A stretch of DNA of 64,000 bases from positions 124,001 to 188,000 of the forward strand of contig NZ_CP032101.1 of NCBI RefSeq assembly GCF_003544855.1. Direction: 5' to 3'. The translations under genes were made by a program, and so were the position numbers. Below are positions 3,541 through 55,005 of the stretch, piece after piece. The notes under the pieces were generated by a model. The model did no database searches, was not told the DNA's origin, and worked only from the letters and a program-made list of their open reading frames with translations. The DNA comes from Malaciobacter marinus. GTDB taxonomy: Bacteria; Campylobacterota; Campylobacteria; Campylobacterales; Arcobacteraceae. Position 1 is the first letter of the stretch. The number at the start of each line of letters is the position of its first letter.

Positions 3541-5334
3541 TTATGGTAAAACTGTATTTCTTCCATTTTCTTTTGCTTTATATAATTGTTCATCAGCTTT
3601 TTTATATAAAATATCAACAGAGATAATATCTTTTGCTTTTGTACAAACATATCCAAAAGAAGCTGTCACATAAGGTGAAACATTGTTTTTTTTATGGGGA
3701 ATTTTTAGTTCTTCAATATTATTTTTTATTTTTTCTAAAAATTTCTTTGATTTTTCAGGATTTGAGTCTTTAAATACAACTCCAAACTCTTCTCCTCCTA
3801 ATCTAAAGCAAAAATCATCTGCTCTATTTAAATTACTCATTACTTCTTTTGTAACTTTTCTTAGCGCACTGTCACCTTTTAAGTGACCATATGTATCATT
3901 GTATAGTTTAAAATAGTCAATATCAAATATTGAAAATGTTATATATTCATTTTTTCTTTTTATACTATTTAAAAGTTTTGGCATTAATTCATTAAAATAT
4001 CGTTTGTTATAAGTTTTGGTAAGTTCATCTGTTATAGATAATCTTTCTAATTTCTTTTTTATTGTAATATTTTCTTTTATTGAGGTATAGCCAACTTTTA
4101 TACCATCTTCATTGAATGTAGGAGAGATAATTGCTTTAACCCAAAAACAATCTCCTTCTTTTGTCTTATTTTTTATTTCTCCTTGCCAAATTTTATCTTT
4201 TGAAATAGTTTCCCAAAGTTCTTTATATATTTTTTCATCCATTTTCTCATGTTTTAAAATAGAATGTGTTTTACCTAATAACTCTTTTTTTGAGTATTTT
4301 GAAACTTTACAAAATGCATTTGAGACATGAATTATATTACCTTTTAAATCAGTAGTTGCCGATATTATATTTTCATCTACGATTTTGATATATGATTTAA
4401 GCTCTTTTTCTATTTTTCTTCTATTTTTTATCTCTTTGTTTAATTTTCTATTTGCTCTAATTATTATGAAAAAAATTGTAAAAAAGAAGATACTAATTGC
4501 TCCTAGCCATCTAAAAATATATCCATAATTTGCATTTGTTTCATACTTTACACTTATCCATTTATTTAAGATAGATTGATGTTCTTCTTGTGAAATTTTT
4601 ATAAGTGTTTTATTGAAAATAGAGTTCAAAAGTGGCATATCTTTTCTTGTTCCAATACTTAAATCCCAAAAATTACCAAATTTTGCAGAGATTTTAAGTT
4701 CACCAAAATAGTGTTGTTGTATTTGATATCCTGCTGCTGTAACTGTATCTATAAAACCAAATAACTTATTGTTCTTAACTTTATTTAATCCCTCTTTTAA
4801 GTTATTAACTTCAACTACTTCTAGATTTGGATAATCTTTTTTTAGTTGTTCTATAAATGCATAATCTTTTACAATACCTACTTTTTCATTGATTTTTTTT
4901 AGATTTGCAATATATAGTTTTTCGATTTTTGTAACAAGTACTAAAGGTATTGAAAGATAAGGCTCTGTAAAATTCAAGTACTGTTGCCTAGTATCTGTTG
5001 GCATTACAAGTGAAAGAATATCACATTTTTTTTGTTTTGAATACTTCAAAGATTGTGACCATGAGTCTGTTTTTATTGCTTTTATTTTAATATCCAATTT
5101 CTTTTGGAATATTTTCATATAATCAGAAGTAATTCCTATATATTTATCTTTTTCAAACTTTTCAAGTGGCATCCAGTTTGGATCAATACAAAGTTTTAGT
5201 GTATCGTGTTTTTTTAAAAAATTAAGCTCTTTTGTTGTTAGATTTGTATCAAATTTTTTATCAATAGGAAGGTTCTCAATATTTTGAGAATATGCATAAT
5301 AAAATAAGAAAAGTATTATAAATATAGCTTTCAT
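3541..5334 (-). CDS. Periplasmic-sensor PAS/GGDEF diguanylate cyclase
   Basis: The 597 residues run: signal peptide (1-16), a type-3 extracellular solute-binding domain (about 35-270, with 'WMPLEKFEKDKYIGITSDYMKI'-like ligand-fold features), one membrane segment (about 276-295), a PAS domain (about 310-425) and a GGDEF domain (about 430-597). The active-site motif is intact GGEEF (513-517), and an RxxD inhibitory site (R504-D507) stands five residues before it, so a c-di-GMP-producing enzyme with product inhibition is expected. The periplasmic domain resembles amino-acid-binding proteins, suggesting that a small extracellular ligand controls c-di-GMP. It lies on the same strand as the following kinase gene, 60 bases away, but each may have its own promoter. 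Confidence 0.9.
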   Translation of the reverse strand: MKAIFIILFLFYYAYSQNIENLPIDKKFDTNLTTKELNFLKKHDTLKLCIDPNWMPLEKFEKDKYIGITSDYMKIFQKKLDIKIKAIKTDSWSQSLKYSKQKKCDILSLVMPTDTRQQYLNFTEPYLSIPLVLVTKIEKLYIANLKKINEKVGIVKDYAFIEQLKKDYPNLEVVEVNNLKEGLNKVKNNKLFGFIDTVTAAGYQIQQHYFGELKISAKFGNFWDLSIGTRKDMPLLNSIFNKTLIKISQEEHQSILNKWISVKYETNANYGYIFRWLGAISIFFFTIFFIIIRANRKLNKEIKNRRKIEKELKSYIKIVDENIISATTDLKGNIIHVSNAFCKVSKYSKKELLGKTHSILKHEKMDEKIYKELWETISKDKIWQGEIKNKTKEGDCFWVKAIISPTFNEDGIKVGYTSIKENITIKKKLERLSITDELTKTYNKRYFNELMPKLLNSIKRKNEYITFSIFDIDYFKLYNDTYGHLKGDSALRKVTKEVMSNLNRADDFCFRLGGEEFGVVFKDSNPEKSKKFLEKIKNNIEELKIPHKKNNVSPYVTASFGYVCTKAKDIISVDILYKKADEQLYKAKENGRNTVLP

Positions 5335-43335: not shown

Positions 43336-44850
<1,515 letters not shown>

Positions 44851-44890
44851 CAGAGAAAAGATTAAGAGAGTCAAAACTCTTAATCAAAAA

Positions 44891-44919
44891 GTCAATATAT
44901 ATTCAGTTTATAAAGGTTA
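44891..44919 (+). promoter_or_regulatory. 3' arm of the 16S precursor processing stem
   Basis: This segment pairs with 43191-43220 (see that entry). It lies between the 16S end and tRNA-Ile. Confidence 0.8.
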
Positions 44920-44937
44920 TTTAAAAGATAGGTGAGA

Positions 44938-45014
44938 GGGCCTATAGCTCAGCTGGCTAGAGCGCTCGACTGATAATCGTGAGGTCCCAGGTTCAAGTCC
45001 TGGTAGGCCCACCA
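44938..45014 (+). tRNA. tRNA-Ile (GAT)
   Basis: The 77 bases fold as a cloverleaf: acceptor stem GGGCCTA/TAGGCCC, anticodon loop CTGATAA with anticodon GAT, GGTTCAAGTCC T-arm and an encoded CCA end. It is in the standard 16S-23S spacer position. Confidence 0.98.
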
Positions 45015-45050
45015 TGATTAAATAATCTTAAAAGAAGAGATTAAAAAGTT

Positions 45051-45126
45051 GGGGAATTAGCTCAGCTGGGAGAGCGCCTGCCTTGCACGCAGGAGGTCAG
45101 CGGTTCGATCCCGCTATTCTCCACCA
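45051..45126 (+). tRNA. tRNA-Ala (TGC)
   Basis: The 76 bases form a cloverleaf with acceptor stem GGGGAAT/ATTCTCC, anticodon TGC in CTTGCAC, GGTTCGATCC T-arm and an encoded CCA end. Confidence 0.98.
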
Positions 45127-45140
45127 ACAAATAAGAAGAA

Positions 45141-45187
45141 GTTAAATATAAGTTCAATGAAGATTGAATTTATATTTAATTTTTTCA
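45141..45187 (+). other. Terminator-like hairpin inside the rRNA operon spacer
   Basis: TTAAATATAA.TTCAAT (45142-45158) pairs with ATTGAA..TATATTTAA (45164-45179) around a GAAG loop, followed by TTTTTT. It sits between tRNA-Ala and the 23S processing stem, so either antitermination carries transcription through or it acts as a processing hairpin. The rest of the 234-base spacer up to 23S is A-rich without recognised genes. Confidence 0.6.
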
Positions 45188-45277
45188 GAGATGAGAAGAT
45201 TAAAGAGTTATTTAAAAATATAATGTTAAAGTCAAAAATTTTTCTAAGAAAAGAAAGCAATTTCAAGAAAAGAAGAA

Positions 45278-45316
45278 GAACACAACTATTTTATTAAATT
45301 TAATAAGATAGTAGCC
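45278..45316 (+). promoter_or_regulatory. 5' arm of the 23S precursor processing stem
   Basis: GAACACAACT (45278-45287) and TAATAAGATAGTA (45301-45313) are complementary to the sequence after 23S at 48289-48325, giving a two-part stem that loops out 23S. Confidence 0.75.
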
Positions 45317-45360
45317 AAGGAATAATTATCAAAAAAGGTTAGAGTAAGATCTAATTAAAA

Positions 45361-48283
<2,923 letters not shown>

Positions 48284-48287
48284 TACT

Positions 48288-48325
48288 TGGTTTACTATCT
48301 TATTAAGTTTACTAAAGTTGTGTTC
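48288..48325 (+). promoter_or_regulatory. 3' arm of the 23S precursor processing stem
   Basis: This segment pairs with 45278-45316 (see that entry). Confidence 0.75.
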
Positions 48326-48353
48326 AAAGAGACTTTAACATTAATATACTCAA

Positions 48354-48399
48354 AATATGAGTATAGAGTGAATAATAAAATTCATTGTATACTCATATT
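48354..48399 (+). other. Hairpin abutting the 5S rRNA
   Basis: AATATGAGTATA (48354-48365) pairs perfectly with TATACTCATATT (48388-48399), with a further TGAAT/ATTCA helix inside. It ends exactly where 5S begins, so it is probably a maturation signal. Confidence 0.6.
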
Positions 48400-48514
48400 G
48401 CTGGTGGATATAGCGAAGTGGAAATACCCAGATCCATACCGAACCTGGAAGTCAAGCACTTCTGCGCTGATAATACTGCACCTTTCAGGTGTGGAAACGT
48501 AGGCCTCTGCCAGC
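48400..48514 (+). rRNA. rrf: 5S ribosomal RNA
   Basis: The closing helix GCTGG (48400-48404) / CCAGC (48510-48514), the 'CCGAACCTGGAAGTCAAGC' block (48439-48457) and the 'GGTGTGGAAACGTAGG' region identify 5S rRNA of about 115-118 bases. Ends may shift by one to three bases. Confidence 0.93.
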
Positions 48515-48528
48515 TCTTGAGTTTTTTT

Positions 48529-48612: not shown

Positions 48613-50007
48613 TTAATGTCTTAATGCTTCTCTTTTATATTTTCTCCACTTTTTAAAGTATTCTTCATTATTTAAATTATTATCATGACTATAATCAGCA
48701 GCAAAGTTCATTAATGCTTGTTCTAAAAAAGTACTATAATCAAGTGCTATTACATCTTTTTGTTTACTTTGTGGTTTATCTCCCCATCTATTTTGAAACC
48801 ATTGATTCCATTGTTTTGATCCAGGTATATGCATATCCCACATACCATCTGAACTAATATTCTTTACTGGATAGAAAAATGTAATCATATCAGAATCATA
48901 AGGTACATAACTTGATGTTCCATGGCAACTTAAACATGATGAGCTTCTTAGTTTTTTTACTATTTTATCATCTACTTTTACATCATATTTTACTGCAATA
49001 TCAAAAGGGCCTGATAATCTATTTCCATATCCTAATGTAACTTTTGCAAATTTAGGTGCATTTGGATTTATATATGTTTGTTTTAACTTTTGCTTTGGAT
49101 TTTTTACAGAGTTAATATTTGGATCATTTCCCCAAATTGCACCTAATGGAACCATTCTATCCCAAGCAGTTTCTCCTTTTGCATCTTTGTCATAAACTAA
49201 TGTAGTAAATACCCAACCAGTTTTAGGTGCTGCAATAGAGTCTTTTACTATAATATCAAATATAGTAACTCTTGTATTCATAACTTTTGGTTCTTTAGAT
49301 TTAATTGTTCCATTTATATTAAAAGGTTTTCTATATATTTTCCAAATGGCAGCATCTTTTAGTACAGGCCACTGTTCTGGTGTAGCAGAAGCAGAAGCTG
49401 CTTTTATAATTATTGAACCTTCTTCAAATTGAGCTTCATTATTATCTATATTTGGAATGCACTCTTTTGTATTTTTTTTACAGTCTTTAAAAATTTTATA
49501 TAAAGTATATGCAGCTATTTTATCATAATATATTGCTGCATAATTTCTTACAGGCACTGTTAATCCAGAATCTTTATATACACCTGCTTCTTGTATTTGA
49601 CCTGTATATGTGCCATATATTGCTTCTCTTCCCTCCCAAGAAGTTAAAGGTACACTTTCTCCTGCCCAAAGCATACTATACCAACCTTTTTGCTTACTTT
49701 TATTCCATTTATCTTGATTTATAATAAAGGTTTTCATTGATGGAGCAACATACTGTTTTAATGCCAAAATATAGTCATATGCATTTTTTCTTGTTAATGG
49801 CTTATTATTTCTTACTTTAAACCATGGTCTATTTATTGGTTTTTTATATTCATTTGGATAATCATAATTGAATCTAAATAACTCTTTTGAATATTCACTT
49901 TTTGTAGGAATATAACCATTGTTAACTGCAAATGGATTAATATCTTTAGCAAATAAACTATTTGCTAAAAATACAGGTACTAAAATAGCTAAATTTTTTT
50001 TAATCAT
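48613..50007 (-). CDS. Periplasmic monohaem c-type cytochrome-like protein, uncharacterised
   Basis: The 464 residues start with a signal peptide (cleaved after SLFA, about residue 20) and contain a single haem c site, CLSCH at 358-362, late in the chain. Upstream blocks such as 'TGWVFTTLVYD' (264-274), 'WDRMVPLGAIWGNDP' (282-296) and 'YINPNAP' (312-318) look like conserved family motifs but not like any named enzyme I can assign. Two further cysteines (C176, C183) could form a disulfide. There is no membrane anchor, so the protein is probably soluble in the periplasm. It begins 12 bases after the stop of the 1661-residue signalling gene on the same strand, so the two are almost certainly cotranscribed. 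Confidence 0.75.
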   Translation of the reverse strand: MIKKNLAILVPVFLANSLFAKDINPFAVNNGYIPTKSEYSKELFRFNYDYPNEYKKPINRPWFKVRNNKPLTRKNAYDYILALKQYVAPSMKTFIINQDKWNKSKQKGWYSMLWAGESVPLTSWEGREAIYGTYTGQIQEAGVYKDSGLTVPVRNYAAIYYDKIAAYTLYKIFKDCKKNTKECIPNIDNNEAQFEEGSIIIKAASASATPEQWPVLKDAAIWKIYRKPFNINGTIKSKEPKVMNTRVTIFDIIVKDSIAAPKTGWVFTTLVYDKDAKGETAWDRMVPLGAIWGNDPNINSVKNPKQKLKQTYINPNAPKFAKVTLGYGNRLSGPFDIAVKYDVKVDDKIVKKLRSSSCLSCHGTSSYVPYDSDMITFFYPVKNISSDGMWDMHIPGSKQWNQWFQNRWGDKPQSKQKDVIALDYSTFLEQALMNFAADYSHDNNLNNEEYFKKWRKYKREALRH

Positions 50008-50019
50008 TTTTTTCCTTTT

Positions 50020-53000
50020 TTATATGATTTGGTTTCTACCTTTTTTCTTTGCTATGTATAGTTTTTCATCTGCTATTTTAATTAAGTTCTTTGGAGTAAT
50101 AGTTTTTAATTCTTTTGTGCAAGCAATCCCCATACTTAATGTAATATATGAACTTACCTTAGACTTTTCATGAGTAATTTCAATTTTTCTAATATTGTTC
50201 TTTATTTCAGTGGCAATTTTTAGTGCATTTTCAATTGAAGTATTAGGAAGAATCATTGCAAACTCTTCTCCTCCATATCTTGCAACTAAATCATTTGTTC
50301 TTTTTAGACTACTATTTAAAGTTTTTGCAACATATTTCAAACACTCATCGCCTTGTAAATGACCATAATAATCATTATATAGTTTAAAGTAATCAATATC
50401 ACACATAATTAAACATAAGCTTTCATTTGTTCTTTGTGCTCTTGCAGACTCTTGTTCTAAAGTAAGATCAAAAACTCTTCTATTATTAATATTTGTAAGG
50501 GAATCTGTTGTTGCGAGCATATCTAGCTTTTTTATTGCTTCTTGGAGTTCTTCTTCGACTTTTTTTCTTTTTTTATTCTCTTTTATAATATCTGAATTTA
50601 ATTCTAAAATTTTTTTATTTTGTACTTGTAATTTAATATTTTGATTTTCTAATTCATCATTTTTTTTATCTAGTGCTTGTGTTCTTTCAGCTACTTTTTC
50701 TTCAAGATTTTTATACATTATAGTATTTTCAATAGAGATAGCAATTTGACCACTTAAATGTTTTAATAATTCTATTTGTTCTTTTGAAAATACTCCTGAC
50801 ATTGCATTGTTTTCTAAATAGATTAAACCTCTTATTTTATTATGAAAGATTAAAGGTAAACATAAAACAGATTTAACACCTCTATTAATTGCATCATCCT
50901 CTCTTATAAAAATTGAGTCACTATTTAAATCATTAATAACAATTGGTTTTTTAGTTCTTAAAACATAATTAATTACATTATGAACAACATTATTAGATTT
51001 TTCAAACTCAATATTTTGCATAACCTCAATGGTCGTTGATTTATATGATGCAGTAGCTTGTATATAATACTTTTCATTGTCTTCTAATAATACATTTGCA
51101 TATTGAGCACCAGAGTTTTCTAATATAATATATAGTAAGCTTTTTAATAAATTTGGTAACTTTTGTTCTTTAACAATAGCTTCAGCAGCTTTTGTTAAAG
51201 TATCAAGATTTATTGCTTTTGAAAAATTAATTGTACTATTTGAATGGTTTTTTATTGAAACTCCCCATTGTATAAGTGCTTCTTCCTCTTCATTTTTTAA
51301 TAATTTTGATACTCTTTCTTGATTAATTTTTTTATAGATATTTGATAATAGTCTATTTGCTATAGCTTTTAAGTGTATTTGAGAATAGATTTCTGCTGCT
51401 TCAATTGCTTTCTCAAAATATTTAAATGCTTCATTAATTTTATTTTCAATTCTATATAATTCTGCTTTTATTAGATTTTTTCTTACTATGAAATTTTCTG
51501 GACACTCAAGGCTATATTTTTCAAACTCTATTAGGTTTTCTTTGATTGTTTTTAGATATTTTTTCTTTAACCCATCATTTACTTTTTCATACAAATTTGA
51601 AAATATTAATGATTCATAAAAATAATGTTCTATTCCATGTATAGTACCTTTAGAATTTTCCAAAAATCTTTTACTTTGTAAATAGTATTCATAAGCTTGT
51701 TTATAATCTTCATAAATATATAGAGTAATCATTTTATTAATATAATAGTAATGTGCAAAATGTAAAGAGTTATAGTTTTCTAAATCTTTTACATACTCAT
51801 CTTCATCAAAAAATTTATTACAAAAAGAGTTTTTATTTATTGTATTTGCTTTTAATTTGCAAATTGCTTGTTTTACACTTAAAATAGCTCCTAATTGTTC
51901 ATGAGCCTTAATTCTTCTAAGTTTTTTTTCAAAAATTTCAATTTGATTATTTATATTATCTAAGCAAACACCTCTTAAAAACATACTTTGTATAATTCCC
52001 GCTGCTGCACAGCCACTATGAAAAAGATCACCTATTAATAAACCTTTATTATACGATTCAAACCACTTTTGCTCAGTTATTGCTGTTGGTAAGAGCCATG
52101 AAAATGCAAAATAACCAGATACAAAATTAACTTCTGGATATAAAACACTGTTATTGTATTTTTTTATCATCTCTAAAGAGAGATTTGCATATTTATAACC
52201 TAATTTATGATTTTGTTTTATTGCTCCTTGAAAAATAACTCCAAAAACCATAAATCCAATGACAGCATCTTTTGTATCACCATATTTTAAACACAATTTT
52301 ACTAATTTCATTGATACAAGTACACACAATTTTGGATCAATTTGATAGGCAGCTTTTAATAATGCAGATAATAGTTTTATCATAATTATGATTTTTTCAT
52401 CTTTTGTTTCTTGTAATGAAATTAGGTTATTTGGGTTTTTGTTTTTAAGTTTGTAATTTAAATACATAGAATCTTTTGTGTATACAATTTTGCTAAACTC
52501 TTTTGGTATATTTAAGTCAAATAATTCTAAAGCCTCTTTTCCTGTTTCATAAGCTTTTTTAAACTCTGAAAAATCAGAATAAAGTTTTATTATCTGTTCA
52601 TAAATATAAGCTTTCTCAAGATTTGTATTAGCCACGCTAATTGCTTTATTATAATATTTTAATGCAGTTTTTTTATTTAGAATCATATGTTCACAAATTG
52701 CATAATCTTTTAATATTTCACTATAATTATCTTTTGATTTTATATCATTGAAGAGAGATAAAGCCTCTTCCATATATTTTTGTGCCATAATAAAATCTGC
52801 ATTTTCTCTTGCATTAATTGAAGCTTTGTGATTAAGAGTTGCTAAATAATCTTTCTGTTCTTTTGTTTTAAATAGTGATTTTGCATTATTATAATGATTT
52901 ATATAAGTTAAAAAGTCATTATTTTTTTTATGAAAATTTAAACTTAATATTGAATCTGCAATTTGTTTATGATATAGACTTCGTTCACTTAATATTATAG

Positions 53001-55005
53001 AGTTATATATAACTTGTTGTATTCTATCATGTGAAAATTTGTATTTTTCATGTTTACTATTGTTGATGTTTTTACTTTTAATTATCCATTCATTTAATAT
53101 AGTTTTATTTAGTGTTTGTTTAAAACTTTTTTCATCGTTATAAACCTTTTTTAAAAGCACTTCATCAAACTTATTTCCAATACATGAGGCTATTTTTAAT
53201 AATTTAGTTTCATTTATTTCAAGTTTATTTATTTTATTTTCTAAAAGTTCAATGATATTATTACTTGCTGAAACTGTATTTAATTGTGTCAAGTCACATT
53301 TCCATTTAAATTCTTTATAATTGAAATATATAATGTTTTCATCTAATAGTTGTTTTAAAAGTTGAATGATAAAAAAACAATTTCCTAAGGTTTTGCTAAA
53401 AATTAGTTTTGCTACTTCGCTACTATTTTCTAGCTTTATATTTGTTTTTAGTATATTTTTTATATCTTCAAGTTTTAAAGCTTGTAAATGAAACGTTTTT
53501 AATTTTATATCTTCTTTTGTTAACTTATTTAAAAGTTTGTATAATCTTGAGTTCTCTTTTACTTCATTATCTCTATATGAAATGATTGTAATAGTGTTTT
53601 TTAATTGGTAAAGTGAAGTTTCTAGCCAAGTTCTTGTAATTTCATCACTCCATTGCATATCATCTATGAAAATAAGTAAAGGAGATTTTTTTGTTGCAAA
53701 TAGTTGCAAATATTTAAATAAATAATTATCAAATTTTATTTTAGATACTTCTTCATTATTTATTGTTTTATTACTTTTATCATCTAAGATAATCTTTAAT
53801 TCAGGAATTAGTTCATAAAGTATATTTGCTTCATTTCCAAGTGCATTTGATATGTTTATTCTCCATAATTTTAATGTATGAGAGTCTTTTGTTAATAGTT
53901 GTTTTGAAAGTTCTCTTATTTTTTCATATAATATTTTGTAAGCAATATTTTGTTTATAGTTATCTAATTTTATTTCTAAGGAGTTAGAAATATCTATATT
54001 TGAATGTTTTAAAGCTGTTTTTACAAATGATGTTTTACCTACTCCTGAGACACCTTTTATAATTATAAGTTCATTACTAATATTATCTATTTCTTCTTTT
54101 AATTCCTGTAGTTCTTTTTCTCTTCCAAATAGTTTTTTGTTACTATTAATTAAAAAGTTTTTTTGAAATTGATCTATTTCAAATTCATCAATATTTCTAT
54201 TATTTAAAAGTTGATCTTCTATTTTTTTTAAATCAATTAAAACAGATAAGATATTACTATATCTATCAATAGGGTTTTTTTGAATCATTTTATCAATTAT
54301 ATTTGATATAACCTTTGGTATTTTAAGTTCAAGTTCATATAAAGATAAAAACTCTTTGGTAATAATCGTATGAGATAATGATAATAAATCTTTCGAATCA
54401 TAAGGAATTATTCCAGATAACATTTCATAGAAAACTATTCCCAATGAGTATATATCTGTTTGTTCAGTAATTGAAAAATTAACTCTATTAGTTTGTTCTG
54501 GAGCTTTATATATATCAGTGTTGTTAGTTTTTTCTTTATTGTTTTTTCTTTTAGATATTTCTTTAGTTTCACAAAAATCAAAAAGTTTGACTCTATTTGT
54601 TTTTTCATCAAAAAGAATTGAATCGCTTGAAAAATTTTGATATATCATTTGATTTTCATGTAAGTAGTAGCAAGTTTCACAAAGTTCAATTGCAATAATT
54701 AAAAAAGTATTTAAATCAAATTTTTTATTTTTTATTTGATGTTTTAAAGTACTTAGACTAAAGTTTTCTAATATTAGAAAATATTTATTACCTTGTTTTT
54801 CAACTTTTTTTGCTTTAATAATATTCTCATGTTTTAAGTTCTGTAAAATTAAATACTCATCTTCTAAATTTTTTTGATTAGATAAAATCTCTTTATTGGT
54901 TTTTATAAAAACCTCTTCTTTACTATTTAATTGTTGTGCTAAAAAAAAATCAGATTCTTGTGAAAATTCTAGTTTTTTAATTAGTTTATAGTTTTTAGTA
55001 ATCAA
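50020..55005 (-). CDS. Giant signalling protein: degenerate Ser/Thr kinase - AAA ATPase - helical repeats - GAF - GGDEF
   Basis: The 1661 residues run: a kinase-like domain (1-265), an AAA_16/NTPase (about 292-560; Walker A GVSGVGKTS 318-326, Walker B LLIFIDD 443-449), about 600 residues of TPR-like helices, a GAF domain (about 1225-1390), a coiled coil, and GGDEF (about 1490-1661) with intact GGEEF (1578-1582) and RxxD (1569-1572). The kinase keeps K35 and D143 but its catalytic loop reads YQNFSSDS where HRDxKPxN is expected, so Asp is N124, Lys is S126 and Asn is S129; the glycine loop is also lost. It is therefore likely a pseudokinase sensing or scaffolding for c-di-GMP output. Relatives of this layout usually end in a histidine kinase or a LuxR domain. 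No membrane segment is seen. Confidence 0.9.
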   Translation of the reverse strand: MITKNYKLIKKLEFSQESDFFLAQQLNSKEEVFIKTNKEILSNQKNLEDEYLILQNLKHENIIKAKKVEKQGNKYFLILENFSLSTLKHQIKNKKFDLNTFLIIAIELCETCYYLHENQMIYQNFSSDSILFDEKTNRVKLFDFCETKEISKRKNNKEKTNNTDIYKAPEQTNRVNFSITEQTDIYSLGIVFYEMLSGIIPYDSKDLLSLSHTIITKEFLSLYELELKIPKVISNIIDKMIQKNPIDRYSNILSVLIDLKKIEDQLLNNRNIDEFEIDQFQKNFLINSNKKLFGREKELQELKEEIDNISNELIIIKGVSGVGKTSFVKTALKHSNIDISNSLEIKLDNYKQNIAYKILYEKIRELSKQLLTKDSHTLKLWRINISNALGNEANILYELIPELKIILDDKSNKTINNEEVSKIKFDNYLFKYLQLFATKKSPLLIFIDDMQWSDEITRTWLETSLYQLKNTITIISYRDNEVKENSRLYKLLNKLTKEDIKLKTFHLQALKLEDIKNILKTNIKLENSSEVAKLIFSKTLGNCFFIIQLLKQLLDENIIYFNYKEFKWKCDLTQLNTVSASNNIIELLENKINKLEINETKLLKIASCIGNKFDEVLLKKVYNDEKSFKQTLNKTILNEWIIKSKNINNSKHEKYKFSHDRIQQVIYNSIILSERSLYHKQIADSILSLNFHKKNNDFLTYINHYNNAKSLFKTKEQKDYLATLNHKASINARENADFIMAQKYMEEALSLFNDIKSKDNYSEILKDYAICEHMILNKKTALKYYNKAISVANTNLEKAYIYEQIIKLYSDFSEFKKAYETGKEALELFDLNIPKEFSKIVYTKDSMYLNYKLKNKNPNNLISLQETKDEKIIIMIKLLSALLKAAYQIDPKLCVLVSMKLVKLCLKYGDTKDAVIGFMVFGVIFQGAIKQNHKLGYKYANLSLEMIKKYNNSVLYPEVNFVSGYFAFSWLLPTAITEQKWFESYNKGLLIGDLFHSGCAAAGIIQSMFLRGVCLDNINNQIEIFEKKLRRIKAHEQLGAILSVKQAICKLKANTINKNSFCNKFFDEDEYVKDLENYNSLHFAHYYYINKMITLYIYEDYKQAYEYYLQSKRFLENSKGTIHGIEHYFYESLIFSNLYEKVNDGLKKKYLKTIKENLIEFEKYSLECPENFIVRKNLIKAELYRIENKINEAFKYFEKAIEAAEIYSQIHLKAIANRLLSNIYKKINQERVSKLLKNEEEEALIQWGVSIKNHSNSTINFSKAINLDTLTKAAEAIVKEQKLPNLLKSLLYIILENSGAQYANVLLEDNEKYYIQATASYKSTTIEVMQNIEFEKSNNVVHNVINYVLRTKKPIVINDLNSDSIFIREDDAINRGVKSVLCLPLIFHNKIRGLIYLENNAMSGVFSKEQIELLKHLSGQIAISIENTIMYKNLEEKVAERTQALDKKNDELENQNIKLQVQNKKILELNSDIIKENKKRKKVEEELQEAIKKLDMLATTDSLTNINNRRVFDLTLEQESARAQRTNESLCLIMCDIDYFKLYNDYYGHLQGDECLKYVAKTLNSSLKRTNDLVARYGGEEFAMILPNTSIENALKIATEIKNNIRKIEITHEKSKVSSYITLSMGIACTKELKTITPKNLIKIADEKLYIAKKKGRNQII

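Follow-up and report, generated by a model that had tools for sequence, protein, structure and literature searches.

A conserved gene pair in Malaciobacter marinus places an exported cytochrome P460-like protein beside a giant pseudokinase-STAND-GGDEF protein

Two adjacent minus-strand genes in a 64,000-nucleotide stretch of the Malaciobacter marinus genome (the window) encode a giant multidomain protein of 1661 amino acids (aa) and, separated by 12 bp, a 464-aa exported protein with a c-type haem motif. We are nearly certain that the two constitute a real two-gene unit, and the exported protein very probably belongs to the cytochrome P460/c'-beta superfamily, as a large branch that has not been described before. 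According to its open reading frame (ORF) and Pfam matches, the giant gene (50020..55005, starting with TTG) specifies a pseudokinase, an AAA_16 (STAND) ATPase, a TPR/helical region, a GAF domain and a GGDEF domain; the downstream cytochrome gene (48613..50007) was assigned from its ORF, a homologue profile and fold matches. All coordinates refer to the window, and all features of the pair lie on the minus strand. As the best overall explanation, to which we give about an even chance, the pair would be a conserved signalling unit in which periplasmic P460-type haem chemistry acts through a STAND switch on cyclic di-GMP (c-di-GMP). The confidence expressed in the unit, the P460 relationship, the functional coupling and the cue reflects judgement, not computed values. 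An earlier prediction made from the sequence alone (the original prediction) had already described the 1661-residue giant with an exported CLSCH protein 12 bases downstream, an arrangement that the ORF calls reproduce.

Distribution and phylogeny of the gene pair

The cytochrome is encoded in 6/104 Arcobacteraceae genomes, and in all six it adjoins the giant. A scan of GTDB extended the pair to a Helicobacteraceae-labelled metagenome-assembled genome, three Nitrincola, Marinomonas ostreistagni and Methylobacter/Methylococcaceae; here, too, the cytochrome has the giant as its neighbour as far as the contigs reach. Family searches added two more genomes with the pair (G904 and G1109). Altogether, close cytochrome homologues were found in ~17 genomes of Campylobacterota and Gammaproteobacteria; within a 397-genome sample of the phylum Campylobacterota, the cytochrome occurred only in Arcobacteraceae. 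The G046 contig begins within the cytochrome gene: its first bases encode the C-terminus (...SMFLKYKTYRDFKKHY*), and a giant follows directly. The cytochrome of Nitrincola sp. A-D6 (L041:4966-9931) is intact and the giant is split over several frames in the draft contig, which may reflect decay or an assembly error. Since the pair recurs in all genomes found to have a close cytochrome homologue, its adjacency is more than chance, and the concern attached to the original prediction, that the two genes are neighbours in this genome only, is ruled out.

The giants that adjoin a cytochrome group in a single clade (support 1.0), outside of which lie cyanobacterial, rhizobial, Legionella, Pantoea and Rufibacter relatives. 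Trees of the giant core and of the cytochrome agree in outline, with Methylobacter, Marinomonas plus Nitrincola, and Campylobacterota as groups; they differ at some inner nodes of weak support. In most operons the giant is the leading gene; the branch of G073 and SZUA-545 has the reversed order, cytochrome first, with adjacency retained. In G073, moreover, a HisKA-HATPase-REC module replaces GGDEF in the giant and the cytochrome stays, and G046 encodes a similar histidine kinase (HK)-type giant, behind which a REC-GGDEF protein is encoded separately.

One might argue that the genes are neighbours solely through a shared history of transfer and have no common function, as their patchy spread among Arcobacteraceae and across the ~17 genomes would allow, along with the loss of the cytochrome in G069. 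We regard this as highly improbable, however, given that adjacency has been kept across two phyla, through both the order reversal and the output swap, and that parallel pairs of a P460 protein with a cyclase-STAND protein exist.

Such parallel pairs came to light when plasmids were searched by tblastn. On plasmids of three Paracoccus strains (L111, L112 and L113), the gene of a P460 relative precedes those of a class III cyclase-AAA_16 protein (985-1003 aa) and a Crp/Fnr regulator, in this order; the genes overlap or lie <50 bases apart, and the one regulator scanned has a cNMP-binding domain. These clusters resemble the M. marinus pair in that an exported P460-type protein lies beside an AAA_16/STAND second-messenger cyclase, but the Paracoccus enzyme has its class III cyclase at the N-terminus and lacks kinase, GAF and GGDEF domains. 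Similarly, at the end of a contig in G650 (L074), the P460 relative has a class III cyclase-AAA_16 gene as its neighbour. All cyclase-linked P460s fall into one branch (support 1.0), with Ala at the distal carboxylate position of the haem pocket, and may therefore reflect a single association. No STAND neighbour was seen beside the P460 relatives of G761, G816, G720, G765, G1026, G949, G1131, G1142 and G1084, nor beside those of Bradyrhizobium, Variovorax, Rhizobium and Sinorhizobium, so that the pairing is limited to two branches rather than a property of the whole family. The common theme of both branches is an exported P460-type haem protein together with a cytoplasmic AAA_16/STAND protein with second-messenger or phosphorelay output. 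As a side observation, a distant P460 relative on a Sinorhizobium mexicanum plasmid (L131:6566-9430) is encoded two genes upstream of a caspase-family protein, near an endonuclease gene.

The exported protein as a relative of cytochrome P460

Following a signal-peptide-like N-terminus (MIKKNLAILVPVFLANSLFA, 49948..50007), the exported protein holds one CXXCH motif for haem c attachment, CLSCH at residues 358-362 (48922..48936), and CXXCH is invariant in all relatives. The label of monohaem cytochrome in the original prediction was thus apt, and can be refined to a cytochrome P460-superfamily protein. The corresponding P460/c'-beta-like haem domain spans residues ~150-372 (48892..49560). In the homologue L081 (~36% identity), the equivalent region matches the P460 family PF16694 with 29.0 bits against a cut-off of 27; further relatives show weak matches there. 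Using a model with a predicted local distance difference test score (pLDDT) of only 61, a Foldseek search of the PDB returned cytochrome P460 at all of ranks 1-17 (E 1e-3 to 4e-2, probability up to 0.99). For the same modest model, VIA listed P460/c'-beta proteins at all of ranks 1-17 (Z 6.5-5.0), and the first unrelated row followed at 4.5. A model of the whole protein (pLDDT 48.6) likewise had cytochrome P460 or c'-beta proteins as its best PDB matches.

Sequence-based comparison gave a weaker signal. When core regions were compared by hhalign, the Methylobacter P460 stretch PDGSVLAK aligned with EEGSIIIK of the window protein, and IKDS...GGWGF with VKDS...TGWVF; the key motifs were aligned, yet the probability was low (2.8%, p 0.016). 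With all of the 16-row cytochrome alignment as input, hhalign gave a poor score against two Methylobacter P460s, a PDB sequence search with the cytochrome profile gave no match, and a phmmer search with L081 yielded chance matches only. Given the low hhalign probability, the P460 assignment rests on the Pfam result, the fold matches and the motif match taken together.

Two positions of the haem pocket were of particular interest. Lys202 (49402..49404) aligns to the haem cross-linking Lys of P460s, and Asp251 (49255..49257) to their proton-accepting distal carboxylate, Asp102 in McP460 (PMC11928373, Table 2). Lys202 is invariant in 20 relatives; Asp251 is invariant as well, except in the cyclase-linked branch with its Ala. 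According to PMC11928373, NsP460, with Ala at this position, retains the cross-link and fails to oxidise hydroxylamine. The exported protein has the lysine expected of the cross-linked P460 subclass, and a covalent Lys-haem bond with its 460 nm band and hydroxylamine oxidation are predicted as possibilities.

In its CXXCH motif after a beta-rich domain, its fold matches and its retained lysine and carboxylate positions, the exported protein resembles the known P460/c'-beta proteins (McP460, NeP460, NsP460 and McCP-beta). It differs in size, at 464 aa compared to ~135-196 aa for P460 chains in the PDB, with an additional stretch at the N-terminus, an insertion of ~65 residues ahead of CXXCH and an extended C-terminus. 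It also adjoins the giant, whereas the parts of the review PMC11928373 consulted here describe no signalling partner for known P460s. Its single CXXCH might suggest an electron-transfer cytochrome, with the giant reading respiratory state and no ligand chemistry involved. This seems quite improbable in view of the P460-superfamily fold matches and the haem-pocket residues, and since superfamily members bind or turn over ligands (PMC11928373). Finally, Tll0287-like/DUF3365 c-haem Cache sensors (PMC12889525) likewise tie an extracytoplasmic c-type haem to c-di-GMP or HK output, but combine sensor and output in one protein and belong to a different domain family; the exported protein had no match to PF11845, the family of these sensors, up to E 10.

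Domain composition of the giant and its degenerate kinase-like domain

The Pfam domains of the giant all score above cut-off. Its kinase-like domain (residues 27-250, 54256..54927; PF00069, E 1.4e-26) precedes an AAA_16 domain (residues 291-462, 53620..54135; PF13191, 66.5 bits against a cut-off of 32.6) with Walker A (GVSGVGKTS, residues 318-326, 54028-54054) and Walker B (LLIFIDDMQW, residues 443-452, 53650-53679) motifs that are both kept across the clade. Then comes a long helical/TPR region (residues ~700-1280, 51166..52908) with TPR_12 at 721-792, which we infer to be the candidate ligand-sensing part of a STAND switch. By its AAA_16 profile, Walker motifs and TPR region, the giant is predicted to be a STAND-type ATPase, and the nSTAND1 profile exceeds its cut-off in a Nitrincola homologue. 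A GAF domain (residues 1286-1425, 50731..51150; PF01590) leads to the C-terminal GGDEF domain (residues 1498-1659, 50029..50514; PF00990, E 2e-52), a predicted c-di-GMP synthase, with GGEEF as active site (residues 1578-1582, 50260-50274) and an intact RxxD inhibitory site (RTND, 1569-1572). The original prediction was therefore correct in reading the ATPase and GGDEF sites as intact.

Its claim that the kinase-like domain has lost the catalytic Asp, Lys and Asn was borne out, too. The catalytic loop (residues 122-129, 54619..54642) reads YQNFSSDS in place of HRDxKxxN, with N124, S126 and S129 at the three positions, while the VAIK-type Lys35 is kept and DFG reads DFC, retaining the Asp. The HRD Asp is lost in 16/16 aligned giants of the cytochrome clade with a readable kinase region, being replaced by N, Q, S or R, but kept in all eight outside kinase-AAA-TPR-GAF relatives examined (as HKD, HRD, HLD or HGD). 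Its loss is therefore a property of the clade; a sequencing error, as had been considered, is ruled out, and the pseudokinase assignment stands with no intact HRD loop in any clade member read. Two more distant Arcobacteraceae HK giants without cytochrome, G091 and G095, have lost the HRD Asp as well, so that the loss is not exclusive to the gene pair. As far as sequence can tell, the domain lacks the catalytic Asp of an active Hanks-type Ser/Thr kinase. It is very unlikely that it still acts as a kinase by unconventional catalysis: most members do retain the VAIK-type Lys, and the window protein also has the DFG Asp, but the catalytic Asp is missing from every clade member read and the DFG Asp from most, and the entire kinase N-lobe is gone from L092, L093 and L039, which are of the HK type or have the cytochrome first.

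The same N-terminal domain order occurs in the kinase-AAA-TPR-GAF-HK proteins annotated as "multi-sensor hybrid multi-kinase" in cyanobacteria, rhizobia and Pantoea, which share 22-30% identity with the giant over the first 700 residues. Unlike the giant, those examined keep the HRD-type Asp, and none was seen beside a P460 protein. Fungal Mak2/Mak3/Chk1 share the kinase-AAA-TPR-GAF order by their published domain layout, on which this comparison is based (PMC5383687). Closest in output is the Legionella lytica plasmid protein WP_252582722 (kinase-AAA-GAF-GGDEF-EAL), with the same scaffold but an intact HKD loop, an extra EAL domain and no cytochrome neighbour. The original prediction had contrasted a layout usually ending in an HK with a c-di-GMP output here. 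Pfam does place GGDEF where the C-terminal HK would lie in multikinases; since WP_252582722 ends in GGDEF-EAL, however, c-di-GMP output alone is not new on this scaffold, and the G073 giant carries an HK.

Elsewhere in the window, a complete rRNA operon (16S, two tRNAs, 23S, 5S; 43336-48515) ends ~100 bp from the cytochrome gene, and rRNA genes also lie near the giant or the pair in G010, G054 and G069. Another GGDEF-containing ORF (597 aa) is found at 3541-5334 on the minus strand (match G000:C1:127550-128062).

Proposed signalling route and its implications

We propose that a small periplasmic molecule, which by analogy might be nitric oxide (NO), hydroxylamine or a peroxide, reacts at the open distal haem site of the exported protein. 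The giant would act as a cytoplasmic STAND-type ATPase switch whose GGDEF domain makes c-di-GMP when the switch is on, with the dead kinase domain serving as a regulatory or docking module. The two would most likely be linked by a diffusing molecule that the haem reaction consumes or forms, for example NO, and that the GAF or the TPR/STAND region of the giant senses. In this way, c-di-GMP-controlled behaviour could track periplasmic reactive-nitrogen or redox chemistry. Of the idea in the original prediction that the unit joins haem or redox function outside to c-di-GMP signalling inside, the conserved pair is established; that cytochrome and giant act in one pathway is probable, but inferred from the gene pair. 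NO or hydroxylamine as the cue is a tentative suggestion, and the ligand, the direction of signalling and the membrane-crossing step are all speculative.

Several observations weigh against this explanation. No Pfam family, the P460 family PF16694 included, matches the exported protein of the window above cut-off, and its structure models are of moderate confidence (pLDDT 48.6 for the whole protein, 61.1 for the core). The giant has no convincing transmembrane segment (maximal 19-residue hydropathy 1.48 in the window protein), on which ground it was rejected as a membrane protein, and no third gene common to the pair loci would take a signal across the membrane; nor did the M. marinus genome yield a link that spans it. 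In G073, a hybrid histidine kinase that contains two SBP_bac_3 stretches is encoded one base upstream of the cytochrome (L092:13647-17144, minus strand); it is a possible transmembrane partner that could carry the signal, but is not conserved beside the pair elsewhere. Multihaem proteins of the hydroxylamine oxidoreductase (HAO) type (PF13447) are absent from the M. marinus genome, so that a source of hydroxylamine is not evident; PF13447 is present in 4/12 genomes tested, and HAO was rejected as an obligatory companion. The sole exception within the clade is G069 (L090), with an intact giant and the cytochrome lost; G054 (L089) has the cytochrome at the genomic place where G069 lacks it, which offers a natural deletion for comparison.

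The direction might also be the reverse, with the giant sensing a cytoplasmic cue and controlling the cytochrome, which would then be a periplasmic hydroxylamine- or NO-detoxifying enzyme and no sensor. In keeping with this, the giant precedes the cytochrome in most operons, and the c-di-GMP clade retains Lys202 and Asp251, at positions that PMC11928373 links to hydroxylamine oxidation in known P460s. We nonetheless consider it unlikely, as the cytochrome is the first gene in G073 and SZUA-545, and cyclase-linked P460s with Ala at the distal position, as in the non-oxidising NsP460, still keep their STAND cyclase partner.

Returning to signalling from the haem protein to the giant, no paper among those searched joins cytochrome P460 with GGDEF or adenylate cyclase; P460 and c-di-GMP share one review on NO in bacteria, and a review of c-di-GMP sensing (PMC8846402) mentions neither P460 nor pseudokinases. 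The pair could exemplify an undescribed trans-envelope signalling class, a generalization we hold a little less firmly than the signalling unit itself. Here an exported P460-type haem protein would be dedicated to one partner, a STAND ATPase second-messenger cyclase in the cytoplasm, whose output can be exchanged (GGDEF with c-di-GMP, HK phosphorelay, or class III cyclase with a Crp-type reader); in the c-di-GMP version, the kinase domain would have turned into a regulatory module without catalysis. Eight active-loop relatives versus the pseudokinase clade, three output types and one partner loss make up a natural series for studying the role of a bacterial pseudokinase. If true, this would give a signalling role to cytochrome P460-type proteins, so far studied as hydroxylamine-oxidising or NO-binding, and would tie periplasmic nitrogen or redox chemistry via STAND ATPases to c-di-GMP and cyclic-nucleotide control.

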